Below are positions 1-39,613 of a DNA stretch of 64,000 nt, in pieces. Under the pieces are notes generated by a model. That model searched no databases. It was not told the DNA's origin and was given only the letters and a program-made list of their open reading frames with translations. Position numbers and translations under genes: made by a program. This DNA is from Lentisphaerae bacterium ADurb.Bin242 (GTDB lineage: Bacteria > Verrucomicrobiota > Lentisphaeria > Victivallales > UBA1829), in the NCBI GenBank assembly GCA_002069785.1, contig MWCA01000003.1:1-64000 (forward strand). Reading direction: 5' to 3'. The stretch's first letter is position 1. Each line of letters starts with the position of its first letter.

Positions 1-2499
1 GAAGCGGCGCAGCTCATGAGACGGCAGGGGCTTTCCGCGATGCTGAAGGGATACCGGCCTTACCTGATGGAATTCAGCAGTCGGTGGTTCACGCATCCGG
101 AGATCCTGAAAGAGGTCCGGACGCTCAACCTTCTTTTCCCCATTCTCCAGGATATGAAATTGCGGCGCGACCCGGAAATCGCGCTGGTGTCCGATCAGGA
201 AAGCCAGCTTTACGGCAACTATTTTGCCAATCCGTCGGCTTTCCGCGAGAATATTTCCCCGTTTATCGGGGCTGACCATGATTTTTACGAATTGCGCGAT
301 TTCCTGAAACCGGGAGTCTTCGAAAAATACAAACTGGTGATTTTTCTGAATCTCAATGCTCTTTCCGAAAGCGAGCGTGCGGGAATCGAGAAAATCAAGT
401 CCGGCGGCCGGACAATCCTTTTCTTTCATGACCCTGGCCGGACCGACCTGACCCATACCCAATCCGACTGGACGGACAATCTTTCCCGGCTGACCGGAAT
501 GAAACTGGAACCCGCCAAAACTTCCGTCAAGTGGGGCCAGGTGGAATTGACGGCCGACCTGAAAAACATGAAACGCGAACTCGGCGCCGCGGCGGATTCT
601 CTTTCCTCCATGGACGGGCCGACACAAATCTCGGACGCTTCCATTTCATCTTGCGATTTGGTCGACACGAAGACGATGCCGGGCGGCAACAACCTTTTCC
701 CGGTCGCGGTCGCCGATCCGGACGCGGTCATTCTGGGACGCACGCCGGACGGCGCCGGACGGTTCGCCCTGAAGCGGTTTCCGGGCTGGACTTCGGTTTA
801 CTCCGCCACGTGCCTGCTGCCGGCTCCCGTCGTCCGCGAAATCGCGAGGATGACCGGATGCCACCTCTATAACGGAAACGGAGACGCCGTGTTTCAGCGC
901 GGTCCGTTTGCAGCGGTTCATACCGCGTCCGACGGACAGCACGAGGTTTTGTTCAAGTCCGACGGAAAAGTATTGGATTTTTACGAAGGAACAATTCTTT
1001 CCCCGGTGAACAACCGGATTGTCTTCCATGCGCGGAAAGGAGAAACGAAGCTGTTTTACTGGGGCGATATCGAGCGTTTCCAGGCTGAATTCGCAAAAGC
1101 GGAAAAGCATTTCGATTCCGCGCTCGACAAGTTCAAAGCCGCTTCTCCCGCGCCGCCGGCCGGCAGGAATTGGTACAATTATGTCTTGAACAACAGGAGG
1201 CCGAAACCGTGGAATTACGGCCCGTTCCCGATTTCATCGTTTGTCCCGAACGCAATGGTGTTCGCCGGGCCGTTCGATTCCGCGCGGGAGCTGTACGCCT
1301 TGGCGGAATCGGTCAAAGAAGTGAAGCGCGCCCTCCGGGAAGGGCCTCTGCCGGAGCAGTCGGAAAGCCTCGCCTCTCCGCTGGCGCTTCTCCGCCGGAT
1401 TCCGGGAAAAGACGGCCGGGAACTCTCCTGGGAAGCGTATCATACCGGCGTCTGGAATCTTCTTTCCGGTTTCGGAATTTCGAAAGGACAATGCGGACTG
1501 ATCGCATTCTACCTTCATTGCGACGCCCCGAAACGGCTGGAACTGTTGTTCGCTTCGGATTCGGACGCGCGGCTCTGCATCGACGGCAAAACGCCGCAGG
1601 GAAAAGAAGGAAAAGTCGGGCGGATCCTCGAATTTCCGGCGGGCGACACCCTTTTTGTGATCGCGGCGGAAAACCCTGCCGGTTCGAACGGTTTCACGGT
1701 CAAACTCTTCGAGCTGGTGGAGGAATCCCCGCGGCCGGACCGTCCGGCATATCCTTCGGTCAATCCGAAAGGAGTTTCCGTTCGGCTGGCCCCGACGGGA
1801 TATCATGCAAAATTGGTCGACCGGATCACTCCGATCCCGCTTGCCGCCGCGCCGGAGGGAGCCGAATTCACCCTTCTGCCCGGAAAAAACAGGTTGTCGC
1901 TTCAGGAAAAAATCCGGCTGAAACCGGGGCCGGATTATTTCCTGAAAGCCGAATGCGCTCCGTCCGGGAACGGCCGGGGAATCGTCTATGCCGGATTCCT
2001 GTGTTTCGACAAGGACGGAAAACAGATCCGTCCCCAGGAAGTGGTGACCGAGGCCGGAAGCGAAACCGTTCTGGCGGCGGACGCCGCGGCGGGCGATTCA
2101 TCCCTCCGGGTGAAGGATGCTTCGCGCTGGAAACTCTCCGGTCCGCCGAAATATATCGCGTTCAATGTAAAATCCGACCGGGGCGATTTGCCGAACCGTT
2201 CCGTGATTCCGGTCGCCGGCGTGGAAAAGGCCGGGGAGGAATGGGTTGTCGCGCTGAAACAGCCGTTGCGCGAAGCTTTCCGGAAAGGGACGGCCGTGCG
2301 GCTCCATACGCTTGCTTCCGAGTTCACCATCGCCGGAGCCCGTTCGTATGCGGGCGACAAAGCCTTCACCCTGAATGCCCGCACGGGGAATTTGTATCCG
2401 GGAACGGATTCGTTCATCCCGTATATTTTCGGCAATTTCACCGGGCAGTTGAAACTTTCCGGAATCGAGTTCGGCACGATCGAAAAAAGCGTGGAATAA
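1..2499 (+). CDS. large glycoside hydrolase-like protein, 5'-truncated by window edge
   Basis: The frame is open from base 1, so the ATG at 16 is probably internal and the gene starts to the left. Near the N-terminus visible here (about residues 50-140) is an alpha/beta stretch, KLVIFLNLNALSESERAGIE then GGRTILFFHDPG, that resembles the GATase-like trimerisation domain of GH42 beta-galactosidases. The remaining ~650 residues look like beta-sandwich modules rich in Gly, Asp and aromatic residues, with no second catalytic motif that I recognise. The catalytic barrel would lie upstream, outside the window. It converges on the minus-strand locus that starts at 2554. GH42-like assignment is inference; the substrate cannot be read. 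Confidence 0.6.
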   Translation, partial: EAAQLMRRQGLSAMLKGYRPYLMEFSSRWFTHPEILKEVRTLNLLFPILQDMKLRRDPEIALVSDQESQLYGNYFANPSAFRENISPFIGADHDFYELRDFLKPGVFEKYKLVIFLNLNALSESERAGIEKIKSGGRTILFFHDPGRTDLTHTQSDWTDNLSRLTGMKLEPAKTSVKWGQVELTADLKNMKRELGAAADSLSSMDGPTQISDASISSCDLVDTKTMPGGNNLFPVAVADPDAVILGRTPDGAGRFALKRFPGWTSVYSATCLLPAPVVREIARMTGCHLYNGNGDAVFQRGPFAAVHTASDGQHEVLFKSDGKVLDFYEGTILSPVNNRIVFHARKGETKLFYWGDIERFQAEFAKAEKHFDSALDKFKAASPAPPAGRNWYNYVLNNRRPKPWNYGPFPISSFVPNAMVFAGPFDSARELYALAESVKEVKRALREGPLPEQSESLASPLALLRRIPGKDGRELSWEAYHTGVWNLLSGFGISKGQCGLIAFYLHCDAPKRLELLFASDSDARLCIDGKTPQGKEGKVGRILEFPAGDTLFVIAAENPAGSNGFTVKLFELVEESPRPDRPAYPSVNPKGVSVRLAPTGYHAKLVDRITPIPLAAAPEGAEFTLLPGKNRLSLQEKIRLKPGPDYFLKAECAPSGNGRGIVYAGFLCFDKDGKQIRPQEVVTEAGSETVLAADAAAGDSSLRVKDASRWKLSGPPKYIAFNVKSDRGDLPNRSVIPVAGVEKAGEEWVVALKQPLREAFRKGTAVRLHTLASEFTIAGARSYAGDKAFTLNARTGNLYPGTDSFIPYIFGNFTGQLKLSGIEFGTIEKSVE

Positions 2500-7280: not shown

Positions 7281-7808
7281 TCATTTCCGATGCTCTTTCA
7301 TTCGGATCAGGGCCGTAAAATTCAACTGATTTGTATTCCAGACTTTGCCGGGCGGGGGTCCGATGAAGTCCCGGGTGACCCCGCCGGCGGTCACCGGGAA
7401 CAATGCGGAATGTTCCAATTGCCGCGGAACGGAGTTGGTCAGTTTCGCTTCCACCCGGATGACCGGATTTCCGGCTTCGATGGTATAGCGGAAGCATGCG
7501 GAAACTCCGGAAAGTCCCCGGGAAAAGGGACGTAGATCATTCCGGCAGAATGTGCCGGTGCATTCCATCACGAACCGTTCCGGAGAATTATCCAGCAGGT
7601 TGAATTCGGCCCAGCGGTCGTCTTGAAGACGCCAGACGCCGGTTTCGTCGGTCAGTTCGTCGCGCCAGGACACGCCGGGAAACGCTTTCCCGGAACCGGA
7701 AACAAAATATACGGGAAACATGTGTCCGTGGAAAAAGGTGCACCCGAACCTCTGTGTGTTCACGCGGACGAATCCGGAATCCGGCTCGATGAATCCGATC
7801 TTTTTCAT
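7281..7808 (-). CDS. beta-sandwich protein, aldose-epimerase-like fold suspected
   Basis: A 175-residue protein starting at the ATG of 7808, which overlaps the stop of the upstream gene (ATGA) and has GGAGG just before it, so the two are translationally coupled. It has no signal peptide. The pattern is all-beta with many aromatic residues (FGCTFFHGHMFPVYF, WRLQDDRWAEFNLLD), reminiscent of a galactose-mutarotase-like or hydrolase accessory sandwich. It may act with the 1095-residue enzyme encoded just upstream. The family is not recognised with confidence. Confidence 0.6.
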   Translation of the reverse strand: MKKIGFIEPDSGFVRVNTQRFGCTFFHGHMFPVYFVSGSGKAFPGVSWRDELTDETGVWRLQDDRWAEFNLLDNSPERFVMECTGTFCRNDLRPFSRGLSGVSACFRYTIEAGNPVIRVEAKLTNSVPRQLEHSALFPVTAGGVTRDFIGPPPGKVWNTNQLNFTALIRMKEHRK

Positions 7809-10800
7809 ACTGTCTGTTCCTCCGGATTTTTCACAGCCCGCCAGCGGACGAATACGCAATGCGAACTGTCATTCAATAAAAAGAAAGTTTTGTGAATTCC
7901 GGACAGCGGACATGCCGGACGCAGCCGCAGCACCGCCGGTTCGAGGCCGGAATGGCCGCCCGGAAAATCCCGGCCCACGTCGAACACCGCGACGGTGTCT
8001 TCGGGTTTCAGTGAATCGACATGCATGGTGACCTGGCCGGTCGGGTGTTCCACCGGCGCATCGAATTCGGCCTCGATGACCCTGGCGCCGCCGCCATAGT
8101 CGATGCTGCCGAAGCGGATGACCGAAGTATTGTCCGGTTCCCCTTCCGGATACAGCCAGTCGGAGGCGGAACGAACCCCGCCCGACGGCATTGCGGCGGG
8201 GTCGAACAGAAACGGGTCCCTGTCTTCCGGAACCGCGGCGATGACCGTGAAAATCCGACGGAATTTTTCCACCGGACCGGCCGCATCGAGGCCGGCGGGG
8301 GCAGCCAGCAGCACCCGGCAGGAACGCCCCGGCATTGTCAGCACTTCTTCGATCGCGCCCGAAGCGGAAGTTCCGGAAAATCCGCCGCCGCTGTCGAAGG
8401 AGGCAAGCGCATATACTCCGCCATCGGGAAGCGTTCGCCGGAAACGGAAATTTTCGGGTTTGTCGGTGTGGTTGATGAACACGGTTGCCCGCATGCCGTT
8501 CCAATCCCAAGAACTGGAAAGCACCGGAGGACTTGAGACGTAATAGGTTCCATGCCGTCCCCACAGCCGGGAAATCCGGCGCTGTCCGGGCAGGAATTCA
8601 ACCGGCCGCGCCATTTCTCCCTCATTGAAGAAATCCAGCATCGACCGGCGCAAATGCATCAGGCGCTTGATGAAAACCCGGAATTCGTACCGGAGCGGCG
8701 AGGTGATTTTCTGATGCTGAAACCAGCCGATCTGTTCGCCGTTTGCGGTTTGGGTCGCGGCCTTGACAAAAGCGGCTTCAGGTTCCTCTCCGACCGAATC
8801 CAATCCGATCAGCTGGGTGCGTCCCGAATAAATGCGCGCAAACAGCGGAACCTGATTTTCGAGCATCCAGCGCCAATTCAGCAGACCGTGAAAAAGGGAA
8901 ACACAATGTTCGGCGTTGTCCTCGGTGGTCAGCACCTTTTCCGGCGAGTGTTTGATCCAATGGTCGCGAACACGCTGGTAAACCGGATATTGTCCATGTT
9001 TAAACCACGCCTCGTTGTCGGCGATCCGGTGTCCATGCCGGGTCGAATAACAAAGCCGCGGCGCGGCGGCGCCGATCTGGTCGGCGTAAACGCCGTCGAA
9101 GCCTTGCGCCGCCAGCCGAACGGTCATTTCGTATTCAAACGTCTGGTAGGTTTCGGTATGCGGACACAGTACTGCACAGGGCAAGCCGTAATACTCGATG
9201 ACGGCTTCGCCGGATGGGTCGATGACGGCGGCGGGAAGCGCCGCTTTGCTGTAAAGATAATCTTCTCCGCGCCGGTCGGGATTCTGCCAGATGCGCGCCG
9301 TGGTGTACGGCACCACCCGTATCCCGGCCGCCTGAAGCCCGGCGACGTCCTCCATCAGCTGCGGTGTCGCGCGAACCATCGGAGACAGCCAGCTCCCCGG
9401 CTCATTCCAATCGTAGAGGTGCAATGCGATCGGAAGCCCGAGATAGTCCCGCAGTTTTTTCAGCACCGGTGCAAATACCGAAAGATTCTGATAATGCATG
9501 TCGATCCGGAGCCACAAGGTATTCTCCCGCATCCATAAGGGGCGGGCGACAGGGTCCGGGGCTTTCTCCCACCATAGGGCGTTGATTTTGCCGAGCTGCC
9601 GCCGGTAGATTGTTCCGGTGTCGTACCAGTTGCCGCGAAAGAGTTCGGCGGCGGCATTGCATCCGGGATGAAATGAGTTGGGTTTTTCCGGTGATTCATA
9701 GTCGGGAGTCCACTTGAAATTGAATTCACATCCGGCAAAGCCGGCGGAAAATTCCAATTCCTTGGGGCGGGCGATCGGGTCTTCCGCCGCGCAATAAATT
9801 CCGGTTTCATTGTCGTAGTACGCTCCCATCGGAGCAAAGGCGTTGCCGCGCGGATAGAAACTGGTGTAACAGGCGTTCCGCTTCACCGCTTCGGGTGTTT
9901 CCACGCCGGACATTTGCGGAACCAGCATCACGTCACTGCCATGCGTCAGCGGGTAGAAGAGCATTGCCGGGAAAACAACCTGACTGATTCGCGTTTCCGG
10001 AGTGCTGTCATCCACGGACAGATCATATTCCAGCCGGTCCCGACCGAAGCAGAAGCGGCTGGTTGCGGTGAAACGGACCGGACAAGTTTCCTCCGGCTCA
10101 TGCCGGTATCCGATGACGAAACGCTGAACTCCGTCGGATTCGACCGGCGGAGAAATCAATTCCGACACCACTTGCGGCTCCAATGGATCAAGCTCGAAGG
10201 TTTGGCCGTCCACCTTGAAGTTCAGCCGGAAAAAGCGATTTTCGGCACTCAGCAGTTCGCGCCGGGAAACCGTATCATACCATGAAACCACTCCGGCAAA
10301 ACCATTGACGTCCGCCAGCGCCAGCCGGGAATTTCCGCCATCGAGAATCCGGAGCTTCCGGTCGCGCAACGCGGCGTCCGGATCGCGGGCCAGCTCCTTC
10401 CATCCGATCACCCCGGAGCGTCTGCCCAGGGCAAGGTTCCGCAGCGCCGACCCCACTTCAGGAGGCGCGTTCACCTGTTTCAGCAGCTCCATTTCCCCGG
10501 GGGTCAGCTCGACCGGAGGATGAAATCCCGGTTTGAGGCGCTTGTTGGACAATACCGATTCCCGAATCTGCTGTTCCGTAAAAGCCTTGCCGTGAACCAG
10601 AATCGACGCCACCGCGCCGCAGAAGCCGTATTCCCCGCCATAGCTCCGGCCGCGCCCGAAAACCAGCGGGTCCGGGCTTTCGGCGGGATGGGAATGCTCA
10701 TGGCGCGCGTAAGCCACAGGCACTCCGTCAAAATAGAGCCTGACGTCGGTCCAGTCCTCTCCCTGGGAAGCGACACAGTGATGCTGTATCACCATGGCCG

Positions 10801-11092
10801 CCTGATGCCATTTTCCATCGGGGGGAATCACTCCGGCGCTTTGCGTATAGGCAATCCATTCCCTGCCGTTGAAAAAGTTCGCGAACAGCTTGTCTTTTTC
10901 GTGGGAAAACACCAGGTGATTTTCCTTGAAAAAGAACACTTCGCCAACAGCCGGATTCATCCGGCAGACGGCAATCATGGTCAACCCGTCGCCGGCTTGC
11001 AGATTTTCCGAACCATCGAAACGGAATGCCCTGCCGTCCGGTATTTTTTCAGGATTGAAGTCAAACTCAAATCGTTTCGGATCTTTTGACAT
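7805..11092 (-). CDS. LamG domain plus TIM-barrel glycoside hydrolase-like enzyme (DUF6259-like)
   Basis: About 1095 residues from the ATG at 11092, which has GAGGG 8 bases ahead; an ATG at 11107 is in frame but lacks a site. Residues ~15-190 form a concanavalin/LamG-type lectin domain (DVRLYFDGVPVAYARHEH, then KAFTEQQIRESV). A central region (IRVVPYTTARIW, GFDGVYADQIGAAAP, TTEDNAEHC) looks like a TIM barrel of the DUF6259 type, with an Asp after the strand GVYAD as a candidate catalytic residue. A C-terminal beta domain follows. No signal peptide is seen, so it may be cytoplasmic and act on imported oligosaccharides. Family name is from memory and moderately certain. Confidence 0.65.
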   Translation of the reverse strand: MSKDPKRFEFDFNPEKIPDGRAFRFDGSENLQAGDGLTMIAVCRMNPAVGEVFFFKENHLVFSHEKDKLFANFFNGREWIAYTQSAGVIPPDGKWHQAAMVIQHHCVASQGEDWTDVRLYFDGVPVAYARHEHSHPAESPDPLVFGRGRSYGGEYGFCGAVASILVHGKAFTEQQIRESVLSNKRLKPGFHPPVELTPGEMELLKQVNAPPEVGSALRNLALGRRSGVIGWKELARDPDAALRDRKLRILDGGNSRLALADVNGFAGVVSWYDTVSRRELLSAENRFFRLNFKVDGQTFELDPLEPQVVSELISPPVESDGVQRFVIGYRHEPEETCPVRFTATSRFCFGRDRLEYDLSVDDSTPETRISQVVFPAMLFYPLTHGSDVMLVPQMSGVETPEAVKRNACYTSFYPRGNAFAPMGAYYDNETGIYCAAEDPIARPKELEFSAGFAGCEFNFKWTPDYESPEKPNSFHPGCNAAAELFRGNWYDTGTIYRRQLGKINALWWEKAPDPVARPLWMRENTLWLRIDMHYQNLSVFAPVLKKLRDYLGLPIALHLYDWNEPGSWLSPMVRATPQLMEDVAGLQAAGIRVVPYTTARIWQNPDRRGEDYLYSKAALPAAVIDPSGEAVIEYYGLPCAVLCPHTETYQTFEYEMTVRLAAQGFDGVYADQIGAAAPRLCYSTRHGHRIADNEAWFKHGQYPVYQRVRDHWIKHSPEKVLTTEDNAEHCVSLFHGLLNWRWMLENQVPLFARIYSGRTQLIGLDSVGEEPEAAFVKAATQTANGEQIGWFQHQKITSPLRYEFRVFIKRLMHLRRSMLDFFNEGEMARPVEFLPGQRRISRLWGRHGTYYVSSPPVLSSSWDWNGMRATVFINHTDKPENFRFRRTLPDGGVYALASFDSGGGFSGTSASGAIEEVLTMPGRSCRVLLAAPAGLDAAGPVEKFRRIFTVIAAVPEDRDPFLFDPAAMPSGGVRSASDWLYPEGEPDNTSVIRFGSIDYGGGARVIEAEFDAPVEHPTGQVTMHVDSLKPEDTVAVFDVGRDFPGGHSGLEPAVLRLRPACPLSGIHKTFFLLNDSSHCVFVRWRAVKNPEEQTV

Positions 11093-11144
11093 GTACAGTT
11101 CCCTCATAAGTATAACGTGCGCGAAGCACCGGTCATCTTTGGAT

Positions 11145-14100
11145 TCATTTTTTCAACCAGGCAATCTCCCGGGGCAGCACGAATTCGGGCCTCAGCGTCC
11201 GCATGTAGAGCGAACGCGGCAACAGCGCGCCCAAAGTGTTGCCGATGACCAGTTTCAGTTGGTTGCCCGACGGAAGCAGCGTTTTTTCCGGCACGGAAAA
11301 GCGGTAAGGACTCCAGCAGCGCGCCCCCAGCGGAACGCCGTTCAGCTCTGCCGTCATTACCAGATGGGAAACCCGGTCGGATAGGGCGCACAACGAGCTT
11401 TGATCACGTTCGCGGGGAGGAGAAAAATCGACTTCGAAGCCATCCGCCGCCACCCGGTCGAAAGACGTTGACAATTCCATTTTTCCGGTAAACAGTTCCA
11501 ATCCGGAAATCCGACCGGAATTCAACGTTTCCGGGAGTGCGGAAATTCCGTCGCGTCCGGCCAGAAATTGTCCGGCCAGCACCAGCGGGTCAAGCAATCG
11601 GTTCGTCAGAGGATTCTCCTGAACCAGCATATATCTTTGCGCAAACCATTTGGAGGTTTTGAACCGGGCGCAAAAACGGTTTCCGCCGGGCTGAACCAGC
11701 GATGTGACCGGGAGGCGGAGATTGGCCTGGTCCCAAAGCTCGAACCGATCCATCGAAACGGCCGGTTTGCCATTGACGGTGAACGCATCCAGCAATTCCG
11801 CCGAATCGACAATAAAAGCGATGTCTTCCGGCACCGGTTCCGAAACGGCGAATTCTCCCCTTATCAGATAATACGGCGATTCCTCCGGGGTCACTCCTGC
11901 CTCGAACCAGCCCATGCGCGACACCGGCATCCATGCGGCCGGAGCATCGTAATCCGGCGCAAGCATGCCATGAGGATCGAAGGCGATCTCCCGCTCGGGC
12001 TGGAACAAATTGGGTGACAGCAGCCGGATTTTCCATTCCGGCGTTTCGCTTTTTCCGAGAATGCGCCGACCAGACAGCAAGGATTCCGAAACCGGCGGCA
12101 ACTCTGTCGCACCGATCCGGTCGAATTCCAAAATCATCGACTCGCCTGACATCAAACGAAAATGCGTCGAATCCAGGCGGCAGACTCCGCCGTCGTCGGG
12201 ATGATGCACCGCGATTTCCCCGATAATTGAAGTCGAGATATCGAATTCTGCCGTATTTTCGGCCAGATTCGCCAGCAGCAGCAACCGCTTGCCGGATTCA
12301 TCCCGCCGCAGGCTCGTCAACACCGTTTCCGCACCAGCGCCGGAAAGCTCAAAGACGGGCGGTTTCAACACGGCCTCCAGTTTCCCGGAAAACGCCTTGT
12401 CGATTTTGAGATGAAGCCCGGCCGCATTCTCCGCTGTACGAAAACCGCCGGCCTCCGTCATCAAAAGCGTTCCGGCCGGAACTCCAACCGAAATCACCCA
12501 GCCGCCGGAAGCCTGTAGCGCCGCCAGGCGCGACGCAACGCGTTCGTCCAGCACCGGAGCGCCCGGAACAATCACCGTCGTGAAGTTGCCGCCCGGCGTA
12601 TGAAGCGCTCCATTCCTCACCTCGGATTCCAGAATGATCCGGTCGAAAATCAATTCGAAATCCCGGTGGTTCCGCAGAAGCGCATCGGTGACACGGTTCA
12701 GCGGTTCCGCGGTGGTCGATTCCGGCGTAAGATTCCAGGTGGCGCTGACGACACGGGTACGGCACATGTTTGTCGTCGTCGGATAAAGCACTGCGATTTC
12801 AGTGTCGCATTTTCCGAAAACGGCGAACGACGAGAGTCGCGAGCAGTACCTTGAAAAATCCGCATACCGGCTCCAGAACGGCTGGGTGAAATGTTTTCCG
12901 CTGGCGAAATATTTCCGGAACCCTTCAATGGTGTATTGCAAACTGTTGTCATTGATGAAATTGATTCCCATTCCGGCCAGAAAGGCAACAAGCCTTCTCT
13001 GGTTTTGCAATGAACTGCGCCACGGCAGCACGCCGAAGGTCTCGCACATCACCCGCTTTGCCCCGGAATAACGGGCGATGGATGCGCCTCTTTTGACGGT
13101 GGAGGCAAGATTCCGCGTCCATCCCGGCTCGGAACCATAGTTCCACGGACTCGGCCGGTCGTCGAAACAGGTGACGTCCCCGAGCAAATCGACGCCGGGC
13201 ATCTGGTTGTATTTAATCTGATCCTGAAGTTCTCCGGTTCCGCGCAGCATCTGCATCTGAAATTTCGGCTCTTCCGGTGTGCCGTGTCCGGTGGAAATCA
13301 GATGGTTTTCGGCACACCACCGCGCGATCTGTCCGGCGAAAGCTTCCCCCATCCGTTCACTGACCAGCCGCCAGTAGTCGTAACGGATTCTTTCCGCGCC
13401 GGGGACATCGTAAAAGATCGCCTCCAGGTGCGGAACCAAATTGTAATCATACCGTTCGCGGAACCATTGCGGCAGTTGCGGTGTCCACGGCGCCCAGGCT
13501 CCTTCGCTCCACAGGCTCGGCTCGTCATAGAAAAACCCTTTGACCACGGTGCCGAAAAACTCCCGGAACCGCGCGCGGTATTGCTCGTGAATGAAACCCA
13601 TCCACGCCCTGACCGCATTCGGATTCAGCAAATCGATGTAACCGTGCTGATTCCAGGTGCCGTCGGCGCCGGTGCTGTTCCGGTCGATGCCGTTGGTATA
13701 CTGGGGAGTAATGACCACAACCTCCAACGGCGAAGCGCTCCGGTTCATAAAGGAAAAATCCCCGTCGAGCTCGATTTTCCCGATGTCGCCCCTGTCGTCG
13801 AATGCACCGCACCACAGCGGCACCTCGGCCAGATCGAAAAAGACCGCGCATCCGGGATTGGCGAGGACGGTTTGCTTCACCAGCGGCCGGAGCCGATATT
13901 CCGGATAATCGCGCATCAGCCTTCCGCCGGCGGCTCCGCTGGGCCAGTTCAGATCGTCGTAAAGCCAGATTCGCATACCGCGGCGGGCGGCCTCGCGGAT
14001 GGTAAAGCCGACGAAATCGAACCACGCCGCGGAAAGGAATTCCGGCTCCTCCAATCCGGAGGTTGCATAGATAAAAAATTCGGTGATGCCGCCGGACCTC

Positions 14101-14216
14101 ATCTGATCCAGCTGGCGGCATATCTGATTGTATTCCAGCTTCCCGTTCCACGCCCACCACGGAACCGGCGCGTAAGCGGATTCATCAAAAGCCCAACCCT
14201 GTCTTTGAATTTCCAT
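11145..14216 (-). CDS. GH106-like alpha-L-rhamnosidase family enzyme
   Basis: A 1023-residue protein without a signal peptide. The N-terminus has the GH106 hallmarks: PWWAWNGKL, then QLDQMRSGGITEFFIY, WLYDDLNWPSG, GFFYDEPS and later RYSGAKRVMCETFG, all in the usual order of that family (barrel strands with acidic residues). C-terminal ~450 residues are beta-sandwich domains, ending in a galactose-binding-like module. Known GH106 enzymes remove alpha-L-rhamnose from pectin or rhamnogalacturonan; many relatives are uncharacterised, so rhamnose is a hypothesis. It is the first enzyme gene after the GntR regulator, 160 bases downstream, and likely its main target. Confidence 0.75.
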   Translation of the reverse strand: MEIQRQGWAFDESAYAPVPWWAWNGKLEYNQICRQLDQMRSGGITEFFIYATSGLEEPEFLSAAWFDFVGFTIREAARRGMRIWLYDDLNWPSGAAGGRLMRDYPEYRLRPLVKQTVLANPGCAVFFDLAEVPLWCGAFDDRGDIGKIELDGDFSFMNRSASPLEVVVITPQYTNGIDRNSTGADGTWNQHGYIDLLNPNAVRAWMGFIHEQYRARFREFFGTVVKGFFYDEPSLWSEGAWAPWTPQLPQWFRERYDYNLVPHLEAIFYDVPGAERIRYDYWRLVSERMGEAFAGQIARWCAENHLISTGHGTPEEPKFQMQMLRGTGELQDQIKYNQMPGVDLLGDVTCFDDRPSPWNYGSEPGWTRNLASTVKRGASIARYSGAKRVMCETFGVLPWRSSLQNQRRLVAFLAGMGINFINDNSLQYTIEGFRKYFASGKHFTQPFWSRYADFSRYCSRLSSFAVFGKCDTEIAVLYPTTTNMCRTRVVSATWNLTPESTTAEPLNRVTDALLRNHRDFELIFDRIILESEVRNGALHTPGGNFTTVIVPGAPVLDERVASRLAALQASGGWVISVGVPAGTLLMTEAGGFRTAENAAGLHLKIDKAFSGKLEAVLKPPVFELSGAGAETVLTSLRRDESGKRLLLLANLAENTAEFDISTSIIGEIAVHHPDDGGVCRLDSTHFRLMSGESMILEFDRIGATELPPVSESLLSGRRILGKSETPEWKIRLLSPNLFQPEREIAFDPHGMLAPDYDAPAAWMPVSRMGWFEAGVTPEESPYYLIRGEFAVSEPVPEDIAFIVDSAELLDAFTVNGKPAVSMDRFELWDQANLRLPVTSLVQPGGNRFCARFKTSKWFAQRYMLVQENPLTNRLLDPLVLAGQFLAGRDGISALPETLNSGRISGLELFTGKMELSTSFDRVAADGFEVDFSPPRERDQSSLCALSDRVSHLVMTAELNGVPLGARCWSPYRFSVPEKTLLPSGNQLKLVIGNTLGALLPRSLYMRTLRPEFVLPREIAWLKK

Positions 14217-33340: not shown

Positions 33341-34078
33341 ATGGCGGCGGTGCAATCCGTGGAACGGGCATTCCAGATTCTGGAAATGCTGTATGAAAAC
33401 AAAAACCCCGATGACGGGCTCGGAATCGCTTCTGTCAGCAGGGAACTCGGGCTGAAACTGCCGACGGTCCACAATCTGATGAAAACGCTGGTCCTGCTGG
33501 GCTACGCGGAGCAGAAGGAAGACGGCAAATACCGGCCCGGTCCCAAGGCGGACAAATTCGGGATGAAAAGCGATTCGAGGCTGCTTGCGCTGGCCCGTCC
33601 GCTGATTGCCCGGCTGGTCCGCGAACTCAATGAGACGGCGGTGCTGATCGTGGCTCACGACGGTGTCCGCTATACGCTGTTTCAGGAGGAATGCACCCGC
33701 GAACTGAAGGTTTCAGCGGACACCTTTCCCAACAGCAATTTCTGCGGGACCGCGACCGGCCTTGCCATTTTGAGCCGTTTCAGCGAAAGCCGTCTGAAAC
33801 AGTATCTTGACAGTTCGCCAGATGCCCTGACCGGGTATTTCAACAGCACTGCGGAACTGAAAAAGACCCTTCGAAAAATCCGTAAAGACGGGTGCTGCGT
33901 ACTGGAAAAAGAGGAATTTGTTGTATTCGGCGTTCCGGTGTCCGATCCCGGATCGGGATTGTATGCCGCGCTTGGAATGTTTGTCCCGTTGACCCGTTAC
34001 GACCGGCGGGTTCGGGCGGAGATATCGGCCGGAATGAAGGCGGCGGCGGAAGCGCTTCTGCTCTGTATAAAACAATAA
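33341..34078 (+). CDS. IclR-family transcriptional regulator
   Basis: A 245-residue protein: N-terminal winged helix (VQSVERAFQILEMLYE, ASVSRELGLKLPTVHNLMKT, LGYAEQKEDGKYRPG) and C-terminal GAF-like effector domain (LARPLIARLVRELNETAVLI, FCGTATGLAILS, ILEKEEFV-like central strand, SAGMKAAAEALLLC). IclR proteins often control catabolism of aromatic acids or sugar acids such as 2-keto-3-deoxygluconate. It heads a three-gene set on the same strand and carries its own palindromic promoter. Confidence 0.9.
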   Translation: MAAVQSVERAFQILEMLYENKNPDDGLGIASVSRELGLKLPTVHNLMKTLVLLGYAEQKEDGKYRPGPKADKFGMKSDSRLLALARPLIARLVRELNETAVLIVAHDGVRYTLFQEECTRELKVSADTFPNSNFCGTATGLAILSRFSESRLKQYLDSSPDALTGYFNSTAELKKTLRKIRKDGCCVLEKEEFVVFGVPVSDPGSGLYAALGMFVPLTRYDRRVRAEISAGMKAAAEALLLCIKQ

Positions 34079-34097: not shown

Positions 34098-35240
34098 ATG
34101 CGGCATTCCAAAGAAAATACGATTGACAGTCTATGCGGGGCCATTACAGATTATCTTCTACGGGTTCAGGACTTCACGCCGGGCGAATATTACGGCTCGT
34201 TCTGGAGCGAAAAGGCGTATCACGGTCCGCTGCTCGACTGGAATGCGGGCGGCGCGCATCATCATCGGGGGGCAGCCAGCGCAGCGTTGGCATTGTGGCT
34301 GACCGGAAGTAAAAAAAGCGACCGGGAAATGATGTATCGCGCCGAACAGGCCTTCGACTGGCTGGCTGCCCGGCAGCATGCGCACGGCGGCTGGTTCGAG
34401 ATCCAGAACAATGAAAAACCGTCCGACTGGGAACTCACCGGACGCGAGGAACTGTCCACGATCGAGACAGCGTTTGCCGTTCACGGATTGGGGATGGCGC
34501 TGCTGAACGGTCTGCCCCCGAAAAAAAGCTATTCCGACTGTCTGCTTCAGGCCGGACTTTGGTTCCTTTCGATCGAGTTTCCGCCCGGTTCCGGCGTCTT
34601 TCCGCATCATGAGCGGTCCCCTTACGATACGCTGAACGCCACGTTTCACACGGTGGAATCGCTGATCCTGATTACGGCCGTTCTTCAGCGGATTTATCAT
34701 CGGGGGATTCATATCTTTCAGCAGGGGGCGTATCGCGGGCTGGAACATACGCTTGGATTGCAGAACGCCGACGGCTGTCTGCCGTACCGTTCCACCGGAG
34801 GCGTCACCATCAATTACACCTCGCTGGTCCTGTGGTGTCTGTTCAATGCGGAGGATGTGATGAGCGGGGATTCCCGCTTTGTCATGCCGCGGCGTGGGGA
34901 AATCGATTCCATGGCAAGCCGTGCGTGCGCGTTCCTCCGCCGGTGCGTCGGCAAGGACGGCGCGCTGGCCTGGGAAAAGTTTGAAACGTCTTCCGCCAAG
35001 TACAACATGTGGACTTACTTCATCACTATGAACGTCCTTTTCCGCGCCGGGGGAGAAGAAAACCGGAAGGCGGGCGACCGTCTGCTCGCATTCATCCGGG
35101 GAAAGATCACCGCCTCCGGACTGCCGCCGATGCGTGACCGGGGCGAAGAAATCACCGAGTGCGCTTTCATGCAGGCGGACATCCTGCTGTTTCTCCTTCC
35201 GTTCAGCCGTTTCAATACCCCGAAGAAGGCAAAAACATGA
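34098..35240 (+). CDS. alpha/alpha-toroid protein (terpenoid-cyclase-like fold), function unknown
   Basis: A 380-residue protein, 19 bases after iclR-type gene, without signal peptide. Repeated helical hairpins with the pattern QxxxGGWxxxQN/LQNADGCLPY and periodic W/G residues (AFDWLAARQHAHGGWFE, LEHTLGLQNADGCLPY) suggest the alpha-6/alpha-6 toroid shared by squalene cyclase-like proteins, polysaccharide lyases and some glycosidases. No lyase or cyclase motif was identified. The GAHHHRGAASAAL near the start holds three adjacent His. Its stop overlaps the start of the M14 peptidase gene, so the two are coupled. Confidence 0.55.
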   Translation: MRHSKENTIDSLCGAITDYLLRVQDFTPGEYYGSFWSEKAYHGPLLDWNAGGAHHHRGAASAALALWLTGSKKSDREMMYRAEQAFDWLAARQHAHGGWFEIQNNEKPSDWELTGREELSTIETAFAVHGLGMALLNGLPPKKSYSDCLLQAGLWFLSIEFPPGSGVFPHHERSPYDTLNATFHTVESLILITAVLQRIYHRGIHIFQQGAYRGLEHTLGLQNADGCLPYRSTGGVTINYTSLVLWCLFNAEDVMSGDSRFVMPRRGEIDSMASRACAFLRRCVGKDGALAWEKFETSSAKYNMWTYFITMNVLFRAGGEENRKAGDRLLAFIRGKITASGLPPMRDRGEEITECAFMQADILLFLLPFSRFNTPKKAKT

Positions 35241-36313
35241 TCACCGTAAGAGGATATTCCGGAGATGCGCCGTCCCCGGTAAGAGTGGATCGTTCCGGCG
35301 ATTTATTCCGGGTCTATGCCTATTCCGAAACGGACAGGGAATCTTTCCGGCTCGATCTTGAGCTTGTCAACGACGCTTCCGGCATGGAAAAGATCACCCT
35401 CGACATCACCTGGCCCACCCTCCCGTTTTCGGAACTGCGGGACTGTTTGTACTTCCACACGGGTTCGGGGTGGAAAAGTATTTTCGGCCGGACGGCCCCC
35501 GGGAAAAGTTATTTTGAACTGGAAGTGCCGCAGGGAATCCACGGCCTTTCCCTCCACCCGCGTTATTCCCTCGGAGACCTGGCGGTTTTTCTTGCGGAAC
35601 TCGACGGGAAAGCGGAACATTTTACCTGCGGTCCATCGGAACACGGACGGGCGCTGCATGGACTGCGTTTCGGCGCATCCGGCGGACGGCGATTCCTGAT
35701 TACGGCGCGCAACCACGCCAACGAGACCGCCGGCTGTTTTGCCGTCGAGGGAATGGCTGCTTTTCTGCTTTCAGACGATCCGCTGGCGCGCTACGCCTTG
35801 ACCCGGAATGAATTTTATCTGATCCCCGTAACGAATCCCGACGGCACGGCGGAAGGCATGGCGCGTTATTCTTCGCCCGGGGGCGCCGATATGCACCGCC
35901 CGGTCGAATGGAACCGGATGAACCGCCCCTGTAAAGGACAGGACGCCGCTTTGACAAATCTGTTCGCTTTTTATGAAAAAATTGCCCCGGACTGTTTCAT
36001 CAATCTCCACAGTTATCTCTTCAAATTCAAGGATGAAATTTTCGCTCCGGATGAGGTTACTGCGCGGGATTTCACCGCTTTCATGCCTGACCAGACCGAT
36101 TTCGGGAAATCCTGGCATTATGTGTTGAATGACCAGCGGGAACTCGCCGCCGGCTGGACGGCGCAGAAAACCGGCAAGACTTTGCCGCTCACTTTTGAAC
36201 TTTCATGGTTCCTGCGGGATGAATCGGATATGCGTGAAATGGGAAGGCGCATCATCCGGGCGGCGCTGCTCCAATATTCCCGCAAAGGGGAAACCGCCTG
36301 GGGCGAACTCTGA
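35237..36313 (+). CDS. M14-family zinc carboxypeptidase-like protein
   Basis: A 358-residue protein, ATG overlapping the stop of the upstream gene (ATGA). Residues ~1-125 are a beta-sandwich resembling the N-domain of cytosolic carboxypeptidases; residues ~130-350 the catalytic fold with zinc ligands H160-x-x-E163 (RNHANETAG), the substrate region NPDG (200-203), third ligand H258 (INLHSY) and catalytic Glu321 (FELSWF). All M14 residues are in order. No signal peptide, so it is probably cytoplasmic. M14 enzymes remove C-terminal amino acids or cleave peptide/amide bonds in peptidoglycan fragments; its place in a sugar locus suggests a glycopeptide substrate, which is inference. Confidence 0.8.
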   Translation: MITVRGYSGDAPSPVRVDRSGDLFRVYAYSETDRESFRLDLELVNDASGMEKITLDITWPTLPFSELRDCLYFHTGSGWKSIFGRTAPGKSYFELEVPQGIHGLSLHPRYSLGDLAVFLAELDGKAEHFTCGPSEHGRALHGLRFGASGGRRFLITARNHANETAGCFAVEGMAAFLLSDDPLARYALTRNEFYLIPVTNPDGTAEGMARYSSPGGADMHRPVEWNRMNRPCKGQDAALTNLFAFYEKIAPDCFINLHSYLFKFKDEIFAPDEVTARDFTAFMPDQTDFGKSWHYVLNDQRELAAGWTAQKTGKTLPLTFELSWFLRDESDMREMGRRIIRAALLQYSRKGETAWGEL

Positions 36314-36437
36314 AGCCCTATACATGCGGAGGATCGGAAAACCATTTGAAAACCGGCATCCTTCCTCCATGAACATGTATTGAAAATATCCCGTTTTGTG
36401 CTACCTTACGTGGAATCAACCACAGGGGAACACAAAT

Positions 36438-39400
36438 ATGAAGCTGGATTTCCGCATCGACTGGGGCTATCAATACCTGTATTCGCGCCGTCATTACCAT
36501 CCGTTTTACCACTGGGACGGACATCTGGAATGCTCTCGCGGAACCATCGAAAAGACCTTTCAACTGGCGTATCCGGTCCTCTGGTTCGGACCCGGCCACT
36601 GCGCCCGTGAAACTCGGCTGGACTTCCCCGAATGGAAAAGCACCACGCGGCGCGGTCTGGCGGGAATCCGGATCGAGGCCGACGCGGAGGAGGACGCCTC
36701 CTTCCGGCTGGTCACTCTTTCCGGGACGTTCGAGTTCACGGCAAAGGACATCCGCGAAAAGGGACGCATCGTTTTCCCGGTCGGACCGAAATATTTGTCG
36801 TGCAATGTGATTGTGACCCGGACCGGGTATTACTGGTTCCAGCCGCCGCCCAAGCCCGGCCAAACCGTGCGGGAGGCGGACGACCTGGCGGACTCCGTTC
36901 CCGTGCGGGACTGGGCGCGGATGCGCACCGCATGGATTGCGCCCGGCGAAAAACTCGCATGGGAAGCGGAAATTCCGGAATCCTCCGCCGATTTCTCCGA
37001 AACCGTTCTGCACCTTGTCGGCATGGCGGTCCCGGACTATACGCCCGGAAACGAAAAACAGGTCCACGATTACTTTCCGATGCGGCTGTTCTGCGACGGA
37101 AACGCGGTGGCCGACTTCACCCACTATTTCCGGGAACACGACACTTTCATGCAGATGCTGGAAGATGTCTGGGTGCGCTTTCAGGCGGCGCCCGGGAAAC
37201 ACCGGTTCGAACTTCAGAACGGCAACAACCGTTTTTTCCTGCTGGTGAACCGTCTGATCCTCCAGCAGTCGGAACACAACCATCTGGAACTTTCCCTGCC
37301 GCCGTGGGCGCTGGTGAACGAACCCTTGATTGGACGTGTTTTCGCTGTCCGGAAAGATAAAACTACCGTCCGCTGGCCCGGCGGTTCCGCCGAACTGGAC
37401 GTGGAAAAAGGCTGGAACGACTTCCATTTCACGCTCGCGGTTCCCGGGGTCGATGTTTCTATTGAAACCGATTCGACGAAAGGATGCGTCCCGGCGGTGT
37501 ATGCGCTCCAAAACGAGACGCCGGAGGTGACGGTCGGTTATGACATGACCGTGGTTCCGCACGATGCCAACGGCTTCATGGACTGGCTTCTGGACTACAC
37601 CTGGCGGACGCGCCTGGGCAACCTCGTGGTTTTCCGTGCCTTTCTCCGCCAGTCTCCCGAATCCCGGGAATACGCCGAGATCCCCGACGACCTCCTGTTC
37701 CGCTGGGGCAAGTTCTGCCGGGAACACGGAATCACCGTGGAGGCCGCCACCAGTTTCGACAGCGGTGCGCTGGTCAAAGGAGCCGGCGACCGGCTTCACA
37801 GTGTCGGGCGGCATGAATGGCCCGGCGCGGTCTATGCGTTCGATCCGCAGCCCGAATGGCAGTCCGACGATATGAAAAGCGCGATGGAGCATTTCATCAA
37901 GCGACTGAAAATCGAGGTGGACCGCGCCCGCAAAGCCGCCCCGCGCGCGGCATTCGGCGATGCCTCCGGGGGACACCGCTACTGTTACATGGCGGGCGCG
38001 GACTTCATCCGCACCGAAACGATGGTGCCCCACACCCAGCACCTCTGTTCGCAGGCGCGTCCGGCCGCGGAAGCGCTCGGCAGCGGCGAATGGGGCGTCC
38101 ATATCGCGATCCAGCACGCCATGCAGCCCTATTTCGAAAACCATCTCGGAATCTATTTCCTTTCCCTCTTCCAGCCGTGGATGATGGGGGCGTCCATGAT
38201 CTACGAGGAGGATTGTCTTTTCCAGCTCTTCAAGGAGGAGCGCCAGGCCTGGGACGACAAGCTCACCCGGGGCAAGCGCAGCATGACGCGCGGATTCTTC
38301 CAGTTCGTCAAGACTCACCCGCGGAAGGGGCATCCCGTGCGTAAGATTGCCTTTATCGAGGGGCGTTATGCGGCTCCGTTCAACGGGTTCATCTGCGATG
38401 CGGAGCAGACGCCGGACTATTCCGTGTGGGGCCTCTTCGGCAATCCCGATCCGATGTGGGGACACCGGCAGCCGGAGAAGTGCCGACAGCTCCTCGACGT
38501 CCTGATGCCGGGCGCCAGCACCCAGCCGCTCCGGCAGGACTTCACCCGCCGCCGTTTCTTCTTCTCCGGGACTCCCTACGGCGATTTCGACGAGGTTCCG
38601 ACGGAAGCGGCCTCCTCCTACCTGAACCAATATTCCCTGCTGCTTCATCTTGGCTGGAACACGATGATCCGGGAAGATTACGACAAGCTCAAGGCCTTTG
38701 TTTCCGGCGGCGGAACCCTGCTGATCGGACTTCCGCAGTTCAGCACCCATCTCCGGCGCGATTTCCTGCGCGACATGAACGACCTGGCTCTCTGGAACCG
38801 CGGTGACCTCTCCGAACTTTGCGGCGTCCGCATCAAAGGCCCCGGCGAGGAGTTCAGCGGACAGTGGAACGGCGCCGGGCGGGAAACCTATCCCTCGCCC
38901 GTTCTCTCCGGCATCCCGAGCCGTTCTCCCGACGAGGACGGCCCCTGCCGTCTTGCGGAACTGGAACTCTGCGGCGCGGAACCCTTCCTTTGGGATGCGG
39001 CGAAGGCAAAGCCGCTGGTGGTCCGCTTCCGCTGCGGCAAGGGGACGGTTTATCTGATGACCGCGTATGCGTATCCCGGACACGAGCGCCTGCGGGAAGT
39101 TGGCGCATCCCTTCTGGCGAAACTCGCCTCCGAAAACCGGCCCGAATGCCGGGTGGACGATCCCGCAAGGGAAGTTTTCTGGAACGAATGGAAGGAGAGC
39201 GGAGACGTTCGACGCATGATGCTTCTGAACACCGACTGGACCACGGCGGGGAACCGGAAAAAAGTGACGGTCGCAACCCCGTGCGTTTCCTTCGAGACCG
39301 AGGTGGTCGAGCGGGTTCCGATGCTCCTGACTGTTCTGCCGTTTGCCGTGTTGGACCCAGACCCGAGCCTTCATATCGAGGTGATGAACACCTCGGAAAC

Positions 39401-39533
39401 CGGCGCGAAATTGAGGCTCCACGGTGCGGGCCGCCCCTGGATGACAATCCGTTATTCCAACGGAGACATCGAATCGCAGGAGATCGAACTTACCGCGAAC
39501 ACGGTTCTTGAAACGGAGCTTTCCGCCCGATAA
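36438..39533 (+). CDS. large glycoside hydrolase-like protein, family unassigned
   Basis: A 1031-residue protein from ATG 36438 (AGGGGAAC ahead). No signal peptide. The N-terminal ~370 residues are beta modules; a central region (HDANGFMDWLLDYTWRTRLG, FCREHGITVEAATSFDSGAL, AGADFIRTETMVPHTQHLC) has the look of a GH-A-type barrel with acidic residues after strands; residues ~720-900 contain a GATase-like segment (LKAFVSGGGTLLIGLPQFS) as in GH42-like trimerisation domains, comparable with the partial gene at 1-2499. No family could be named. Last gene of the IclR locus, 124 bases after the M14 gene. Confidence 0.6.
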   Translation: MKLDFRIDWGYQYLYSRRHYHPFYHWDGHLECSRGTIEKTFQLAYPVLWFGPGHCARETRLDFPEWKSTTRRGLAGIRIEADAEEDASFRLVTLSGTFEFTAKDIREKGRIVFPVGPKYLSCNVIVTRTGYYWFQPPPKPGQTVREADDLADSVPVRDWARMRTAWIAPGEKLAWEAEIPESSADFSETVLHLVGMAVPDYTPGNEKQVHDYFPMRLFCDGNAVADFTHYFREHDTFMQMLEDVWVRFQAAPGKHRFELQNGNNRFFLLVNRLILQQSEHNHLELSLPPWALVNEPLIGRVFAVRKDKTTVRWPGGSAELDVEKGWNDFHFTLAVPGVDVSIETDSTKGCVPAVYALQNETPEVTVGYDMTVVPHDANGFMDWLLDYTWRTRLGNLVVFRAFLRQSPESREYAEIPDDLLFRWGKFCREHGITVEAATSFDSGALVKGAGDRLHSVGRHEWPGAVYAFDPQPEWQSDDMKSAMEHFIKRLKIEVDRARKAAPRAAFGDASGGHRYCYMAGADFIRTETMVPHTQHLCSQARPAAEALGSGEWGVHIAIQHAMQPYFENHLGIYFLSLFQPWMMGASMIYEEDCLFQLFKEERQAWDDKLTRGKRSMTRGFFQFVKTHPRKGHPVRKIAFIEGRYAAPFNGFICDAEQTPDYSVWGLFGNPDPMWGHRQPEKCRQLLDVLMPGASTQPLRQDFTRRRFFFSGTPYGDFDEVPTEAASSYLNQYSLLLHLGWNTMIREDYDKLKAFVSGGGTLLIGLPQFSTHLRRDFLRDMNDLALWNRGDLSELCGVRIKGPGEEFSGQWNGAGRETYPSPVLSGIPSRSPDEDGPCRLAELELCGAEPFLWDAAKAKPLVVRFRCGKGTVYLMTAYAYPGHERLREVGASLLAKLASENRPECRVDDPAREVFWNEWKESGDVRRMMLLNTDWTTAGNRKKVTVATPCVSFETEVVERVPMLLTVLPFAVLDPDPSLHIEVMNTSETGAKLRLHGAGRPWMTIRYSNGDIESQEIELTANTVLETELSAR

Positions 39534-39613
39534 GAGACGTAACAAAACTCAGCGTTTCAGAAATCGAATTCAGACAGGATTGTAATCCGGTTTTTCCAAA
39601 CGGGGGCATGTCC

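Follow-up and report, generated by a model that had tools for sequence, protein, structure and literature searches.

The gene at positions 36438 to 39533 of the window, by which we mean the whole 64,000-nt stretch of contig MWCA01000003.1 from Lentisphaerae bacterium ADurb.Bin242, raises the question of what kind of enzyme its 1031-aa product might be. A first-pass annotation, made from the sequence alone, had described the protein as a barrel-like centre joined to a GATase-like segment and had suggested a new glycoside hydrolase (GH) family. The listed plus-strand frame opens earlier, at TTG 36396, and ends at 39533; however, we took ATG 36438 as the start codon because it is preceded by an AGGGGA motif and because the aligned relatives start at the same position. 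The N-terminus MKLDFRIDWGYQYLY is common to the relatives. As a similarly long antisense frame is also present (36318-39545, minus strand, 1075 aa), we checked the coding strand by comparison with 7 of the 21 relatives. In the plus frame, the differences amounted to 20-34, 16-28, and 47-64% at codon positions 1, 2, and 3, respectively. This concentration at third positions, together with the existence of the relatives, argues that the annotated gene is real and rules out the antisense frame as a gene. The G+C content of the gene is 61%. Between positions 36250 and 39750, no promoter-like sites were found (mean of 0.8 in shuffled sequences), and the four terminator-like sites represent no excess over the 4.6 expected by chance. 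No signal peptide was seen by eye at the N-terminus, and a cytoplasmic location of the protein is therefore likely, judging from its sequence. The features discussed below are collected in Table 1.

Table 1. Positions in the window of the studied gene, its predicted domains and candidate active-site residues, and the neighboring or related genes
Feature	Position	Strand	Basis or remark
Partial gene at contig end, GH42-B-type domain	1..2499	+	Profile comparison
IclR-family regulator, head of the same directon	33341..34078	+	
Protein with weak squalene-cyclase-type (alpha-toroid) matches	34098..35240	+	Pfam, NCBIfam
M14-peptidase-like gene	35237..36313	+	Pfam; ends 124 bp before the studied gene
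AGGGGA, ribosome-binding-like site	36424..36429	+	Sequence; 8 nt 5′ of ATG 36438
Studied gene	36438..39533	+	1031 aa; frame, start shared by relatives, codon-position pattern
N-terminal beta region, residues 1-139	36438..36854	+	AlphaFold2
CBM35/36/6-like beta-sandwich, residues 140-280	36855..37277	+	VIA-align to 2w47: Z 13.0, rmsd 2.1, 123 aligned
(beta/alpha)8 barrel (predicted), residues ~359-630	37512..38327	+	AlphaFold2 full and barrel-only models, VIA-align
Glu460, following strand 4; putative general acid	37815..37817	+	22/22 relatives
Glu527, in strand 6	38016..38018	+	22/22; distant homologues Glu 14/16, Gln 2/16
Gln559, just after strand 7	38112..38114	+	Gln 20/22, His 2/22; clan GH-A nucleophile place
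Glu591, end of strand 8	38208..38210	+	22/22; distant homologues 16/16
GH42-type trimerization (B) domain, residues ~631-903	38328..39146	+	hhalign against GH42; weak PF08532 matches
C-terminal beta domain, residues 904-1031	39147..39530	+	AlphaFold2; hhalign to GH42 extends to residue 965

The protein was aligned with 21 full-length relatives, to which it is 50-73% identical, and the resulting 22-row alignment, query included, contains 220 invariant columns. The alignment omits L013, which carries an internal stop codon, and L035, L038, L043, L044, and L047, which are copies or near-copies of rows retained. A search of 61 related genomes yielded some match in 19 of them, and 11 of the listed matches were near full length, the window itself included; a sample of 288 genomes of the phylum contained 21 with a match at an E value of ≤1e-50. 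Seventeen loci were found in a genome contig collection, and their hosts are Lentisphaeria/Victivallales MAGs, three genomes labelled Verrucomicrobia or Kiritimatiellae, and Victivallis vadensis DSM 14823, whose orthologue (L044) belongs to a public genome. The main hosts of the gene are Victivallis-type gut bacteria. In L044, the V. vadensis orthologue is followed at a distance of approximately 135 bp by a phage-integrase-family gene (11977-13578). No match was found in phages, the query matched no PHROGs family, and the plasmid search returned a single distant match, a 1050-aa homologue in a Phocaeicola massiliensis plasmid record (L059, 2267-5419) that has by eye a signal-peptide-like N-terminus and adjoins a NAGLU/GH89 gene. 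The distant homologues are mostly of about 600-1080 aa and match chiefly residues 450-940; five of them are encoded in the window's own genome, and none of the 10 examined passed a Pfam cut-off. The set used below comprises 16 of the 23 distant loci, after removal, on visual inspection, of L017, L019, L024, L027, L028, L030, and L032, which were short, broken, or close to rows that were kept; the alignment with this set is also without L010, L040, and L050, three of the 22 rows.

The absence of a recognizable GH signature, noted in the first-pass annotation, was borne out by the searches. The query matched no Pfam and no NCBIfam family at an E value of ≤1 in libraries dating from 2025-2026, it did not exceed the cut-off of a curated GH42 model (PF02449 or PF08532), and a single-sequence search of the PDB sequences gave no match at an E value of ≤10. 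Weak matches to PF08532, the GH42 trimerization family, were detected in 14 of the 22 relatives (best E value of 1.6e-4), PF02449 was not among the six Pfam families listed for the 22 relatives, and a broader profile of relatives matched GH42 chains of the PDB in the trimerization domain (8e-6). We compared a superfamily profile of 21 rows with 29 GH42 sequences from related genomes (29 of 30 matches; L085 was omitted for its length). hhalign aligned residues 508-965 with these sequences at 99.0% and an E value of 8.3e-18 (reversed control, 0.021), and residues 632-905 alone reached 5.1e-16 (reversed control, 0.007), while the barrel alone gave a nonsignificant 0.018 (reversed control, 0.25). 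These profile comparisons demonstrate that the B domain is homologous to the B domain of GH42; as the barrel alone did not reach significance, its common origin with GH42 rests on fold and domain order. The GATase-like segment is real and is better named a GH42-type trimerization domain. A nucleophile-elbow Cys is the motif of class I glutamine amidotransferases (GATases), and GATase function was rejected, since in all 22 rows such a Cys is missing from residues 764-769, which follow the strand at 760-764.

The same element had been ascribed to the partial gene at the contig end, and this, too, proved correct. As a single sequence, the partial protein matches the studied protein marginally (E value of 0.019; hhalign probability of 3%). 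However, a profile built from it and 10 relatives of its own matched GH42 at 95.3% and an E value of 2e-8 and the B domain of the studied protein at 86.9% and an E value of 4e-6, with the reversed control at 0.18. Residues ~620-800 of the partial protein also match, at ~27-44% identity, dozens of separate genes in the same and related genomes, many of them of 260-330 aa, and represent a much-duplicated domain. In addition, the window's own genome holds 25 matches to PF02449, the GH42 barrel, with 26 of 69 candidates scored, which is a strong expansion.

The AlphaFold2 model of the full protein, built from 22 sequences, has a mean pLDDT of 84.1 and a pTM of 0.87 and supports the proposed barrel-like centre. 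Eight strand/helix units are predicted between residues 365 and 626, with the strands at 365-370, 396-399, 433-437, 453-457, 504-507, 523-528, about 552-557, and about 587-591, and a barrel-only model (35 sequences; pLDDT of 84.9) placed all eight within one residue of these positions. The loop at 597-606, after strand 8, has a pLDDT of <50. Among the best 50 Foldseek matches of the full model (E values of 1.6e-16 to 2.7e-13), archaeal exo-glucosaminidases and a beta-1,2-glucosyltransferase came first, GH42 and GH164 followed closely, and two GH112 chains were included; several of the 50 show the same three-domain order. VIA ranked GH42 and GH164 first for the full model (Z 15.9, rmsd 4.2, and 499 aligned for GH42 3tts; Z 15.4 for GH164 6t5o), and for the barrel alone it gave GH164 Bs164 (Z 18.7, rmsd 3.4-3.5, 259-261 aligned) and GH42 6lvw (Z 17.8), with GH5-type barrels ranking next. 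Without VIA, the leading Foldseek matches of the isolated barrel were sugar 3-epimerases (8xiv, E value of 2.1e-7); this assignment was rejected, as no epimerase is among the 50 entries listed once VIA had re-aligned the matches, and these entries are almost all glycoside hydrolases. Collectively, the prediction and the profile homology point to the GH42 architecture of a barrel, a trimerization domain, and a C-terminal beta domain.

Clan GH-A enzymes need a Glu on both strand 4 and strand 7, as described in passages of PMC7105311, PMC8233224, and PMC6566704. When the acidic residues were compared among the relatives, a check that the first-pass annotation had recommended, Glu460, Glu527, and Glu591 were found to be invariant. 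By its position in the model, Glu460 matches the strand-4 acid/base residue in all 22 rows. In the distant homologues, this position is Glu in 14 of 16 and gapped in 2; in a second alignment, it is Glu in 13 of 16, and L002, L020, and L021 have a Glu one residue earlier. At the predicted strand 7, the corresponding Glu is absent. The segment of the query reads WGVHIAIQH, residues 552-563 contain no acid at all, and the nearest acids, E551 before the predicted strand (17/22) and E567 11 residues after it (18/22), are not invariant. hhalign pairs the GH42 nucleophile segment (LMESxP) with residues 555-559 in a register uncertain by about 3 residues. Thus, in the modeled arrangement, the 22 rows share no acid where strand 7 is predicted, and the enzyme may use a different catalytic pair or be a phosphorylase.

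A Glu does occur at position 559 in 8 of the 16 distant homologues (L003, L004, L016, L018, L026, L029, L031, and L034). These are proteins of about 730-870 aa, two of which (L003 and L004) are encoded in the window's own genome, and the four tested (L003, L004, L016, and L031) gave no Pfam match over the cut-off. The Glu559 rows fall together with L006 and L023, which have another residue, on one side of a supported branch (97/94); the query's side of the tree carries Gln, His, Gly, or Cys at 559, on long branches for which the bootstrap is not settled. When a profile of this clade was compared with GH42, the alignment covered the B and C domains only, and Glu559 may or may not pair with the GH42 nucleophile.

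The toroid-like and M14-like genes upstream of the studied gene overlap by 4 bases (ATGA, 35237-35240) and, behind the IclR regulator, possibly form an operon with it. The surrounding region of the window also holds GH3, GH16+CBM6, and DUF4838 genes. At positions 7805-14216 (minus strand), a DUF6259 and Laminin_G_3 protein adjoins a divergent GH106-type rhamnosidase-like protein. No conserved operon was found, and next to the relatives the window neighbors recur only as isolated DUF1559, DUF4838, AraC, and GDSL matches. Among 16 of the 17 loci (L043 was omitted; L050 and L051 share neighbors), three have a sodium:solute symporter gene in the directon of the relative; in L042 and L046, it directly precedes the relative and overlaps it by 4 bases (ATGA), while in L036 a GH39-type gene overlaps likewise and the symporter gene is one gene further upstream. 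In L037, a GH20 gene directly precedes the relative. These neighbors suit an enzyme acting on imported sugars, although they do not name the substrate.

We lean toward the view that the protein is a carbohydrate-active enzyme with a GH42/GH164-like architecture and a cytoplasmic location, and that its strand-7 nucleophile has been replaced and its catalytic pair displaced. In such an enzyme, an N-terminal carbohydrate-binding-like domain would precede the catalytic (beta/alpha)8 barrel, the GH42-type trimerization domain, and the C-terminal beta domain. Glu460 would be the likely proton donor, given its invariance and position. With Gln or His in place of the strand-7 nucleophile, some other group would have to take the second catalytic role, the invariant Glu527 and Glu591 being the likeliest. 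By analogy, we infer a trimer and exo action: the enzyme would probably cleave a terminal sugar off an imported oligosaccharide or glycoconjugate, and the trimer neighbor may complete the pocket in which this happens. Passages of PMC7105311 and PMC8233224 describe the trimer architecture along with the strand 4/7 rule.

Several known systems come close to this build. GH42 beta-galactosidases share the three-domain architecture and a homologous B domain (E value of 5e-16), but the studied protein lacks their strand-7 Glu and the query reaches no GH42 Pfam model. The alpha-L-fucosidase isoenzyme 2 of Paenibacillus thiaminolyticus (6tvk), a member of GH151, aligns with the whole model (Z 12.6, 475 aligned), yet it is not among the PDB sequence matches. 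GH151 has the GH42-type trimerization architecture, and its own activity is debated, according to passages of PMC8395109. The best barrel match, the GH164 beta-mannosidase Bs164 (6t5o and others), likewise combines barrel, trimerization, and beta domains and has a Glu after strand 4. However, this likeness is known from the structure match only, with ~9-10% identity in the barrel, the studied protein has ~355 extra N-terminal residues, and it carries Gln or His in place of strand-7 Glu297 of the Bs164 pair Glu160/Glu297 (passages of PMC7105311). The GH5 exo-mannosidase Op5Man5 (7bob; barrel Z 16.2) also has the GH42-type trimer barrel and B domain, but with Glu156/Glu281 on strands 4 and 7 (passages of PMC8233224). 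GH148 (EngU) was considered for its GH42-like halves and ruled out on account of its catalytic pair, Glu239/Glu581, given in passages of PMC5725463.

Two other readings explain strand 7 differently. The protein could be an ordinary retaining GH-A-type glycosidase whose nucleophile was misplaced by the model, the partner being, e.g., Glu567, Glu590/591, or Glu600/601. E590, E591, D592, E600, E601, D606, and D607 near strand 8 are all present in 22/22 rows and E567 in 18/22, and the loop at 597-606 is poorly modeled; however, both models agree on the eight strands, in which residues 552-557 form strand 7 and residues 587-591 strand 8, and hhalign places the GH42 'MESxP' at the former within a few residues, which makes this reading unlikely. 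The non-acidic nucleophile place and the N-terminus without a visible signal peptide would also fit an inverting, GH112-like glycoside phosphorylase, in which Glu460 would protonate the leaving group and phosphate at the GH42 nucleophile place would attack C1 to yield a sugar 1-phosphate in the cytoplasm. According to a passage of PMC8106489, GH112 is built like GH42, its phosphate site lying close to the position of the GH42 nucleophile and its acid close to that of the acid/base residue. Several invariant Arg and His residues (R390, R400, R514, R525, H555, and H560) agree with such a site but would equally suit an acidic or sulfated sugar, and the GH112 chains 3wfz, at ranks 47-48 of the best 50 Foldseek matches of the whole model, superpose poorly (TM 0.23-0.24, rmsd ~22). 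Moreover, no sequence relation to GH112 was found, the query matching no family of Pfam, which includes GH112 models, and the part of the neighbors that was scanned revealed no sugar-kinase or mutase partner. We consider a phosphorylase of this kind quite unlikely.

The remaining alternatives concern classification and catalysis as such. New GH families are added often, and the V. vadensis orthologue lies in a public genome, so the protein might belong to a CAZy family that is already assigned but not in the curated libraries searched. We regard this as somewhat unlikely, given that the 2025-2026 Pfam and NCBIfam libraries gave no match and that a literature search, covering the openings of abstracts and passages of papers, found no description of this protein family. 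A non-catalytic carbohydrate-binding or regulatory relative of GH42 would account for the missing strand-7 nucleophile and the CBM-like N-terminus, but it is very improbable, since all 22 rows share the three carboxylates located at the barrel's catalytic end, which are also nearly invariant in the 16 distant homologues. As regards the new GH family suggested in the first-pass annotation, the fold, the B/C-domain homology to GH42, and the invariant barrel carboxylates uphold a GH-like enzyme outside the curated Pfam and NCBIfam families; as it is set apart from these families only, a new family is no more than a possibility.

Returning to the GH42-like enzyme with a displaced catalytic pair, we more tentatively propose that it represents a new carbohydrate-active enzyme family that kept the strand-4 acid and lost the strand-7 nucleophile throughout the clade, cleavage proceeding via the strand 6/8 carboxylates or by inverting phosphorolysis in the cytoplasm. 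The Glu-bearing sister clade would then show the evolutionary switch. GH42-like trimers recur as scaffolds in glycan use, and a conserved Lentisphaeria/Victivallales family without the defining nucleophile, together with a related clade that bears the Glu, would offer a direct system for testing a change of mechanism in a retaining scaffold. The family also adds an unassigned enzyme group to the annotation of glycan use, with Victivallis vadensis as a cultured host.
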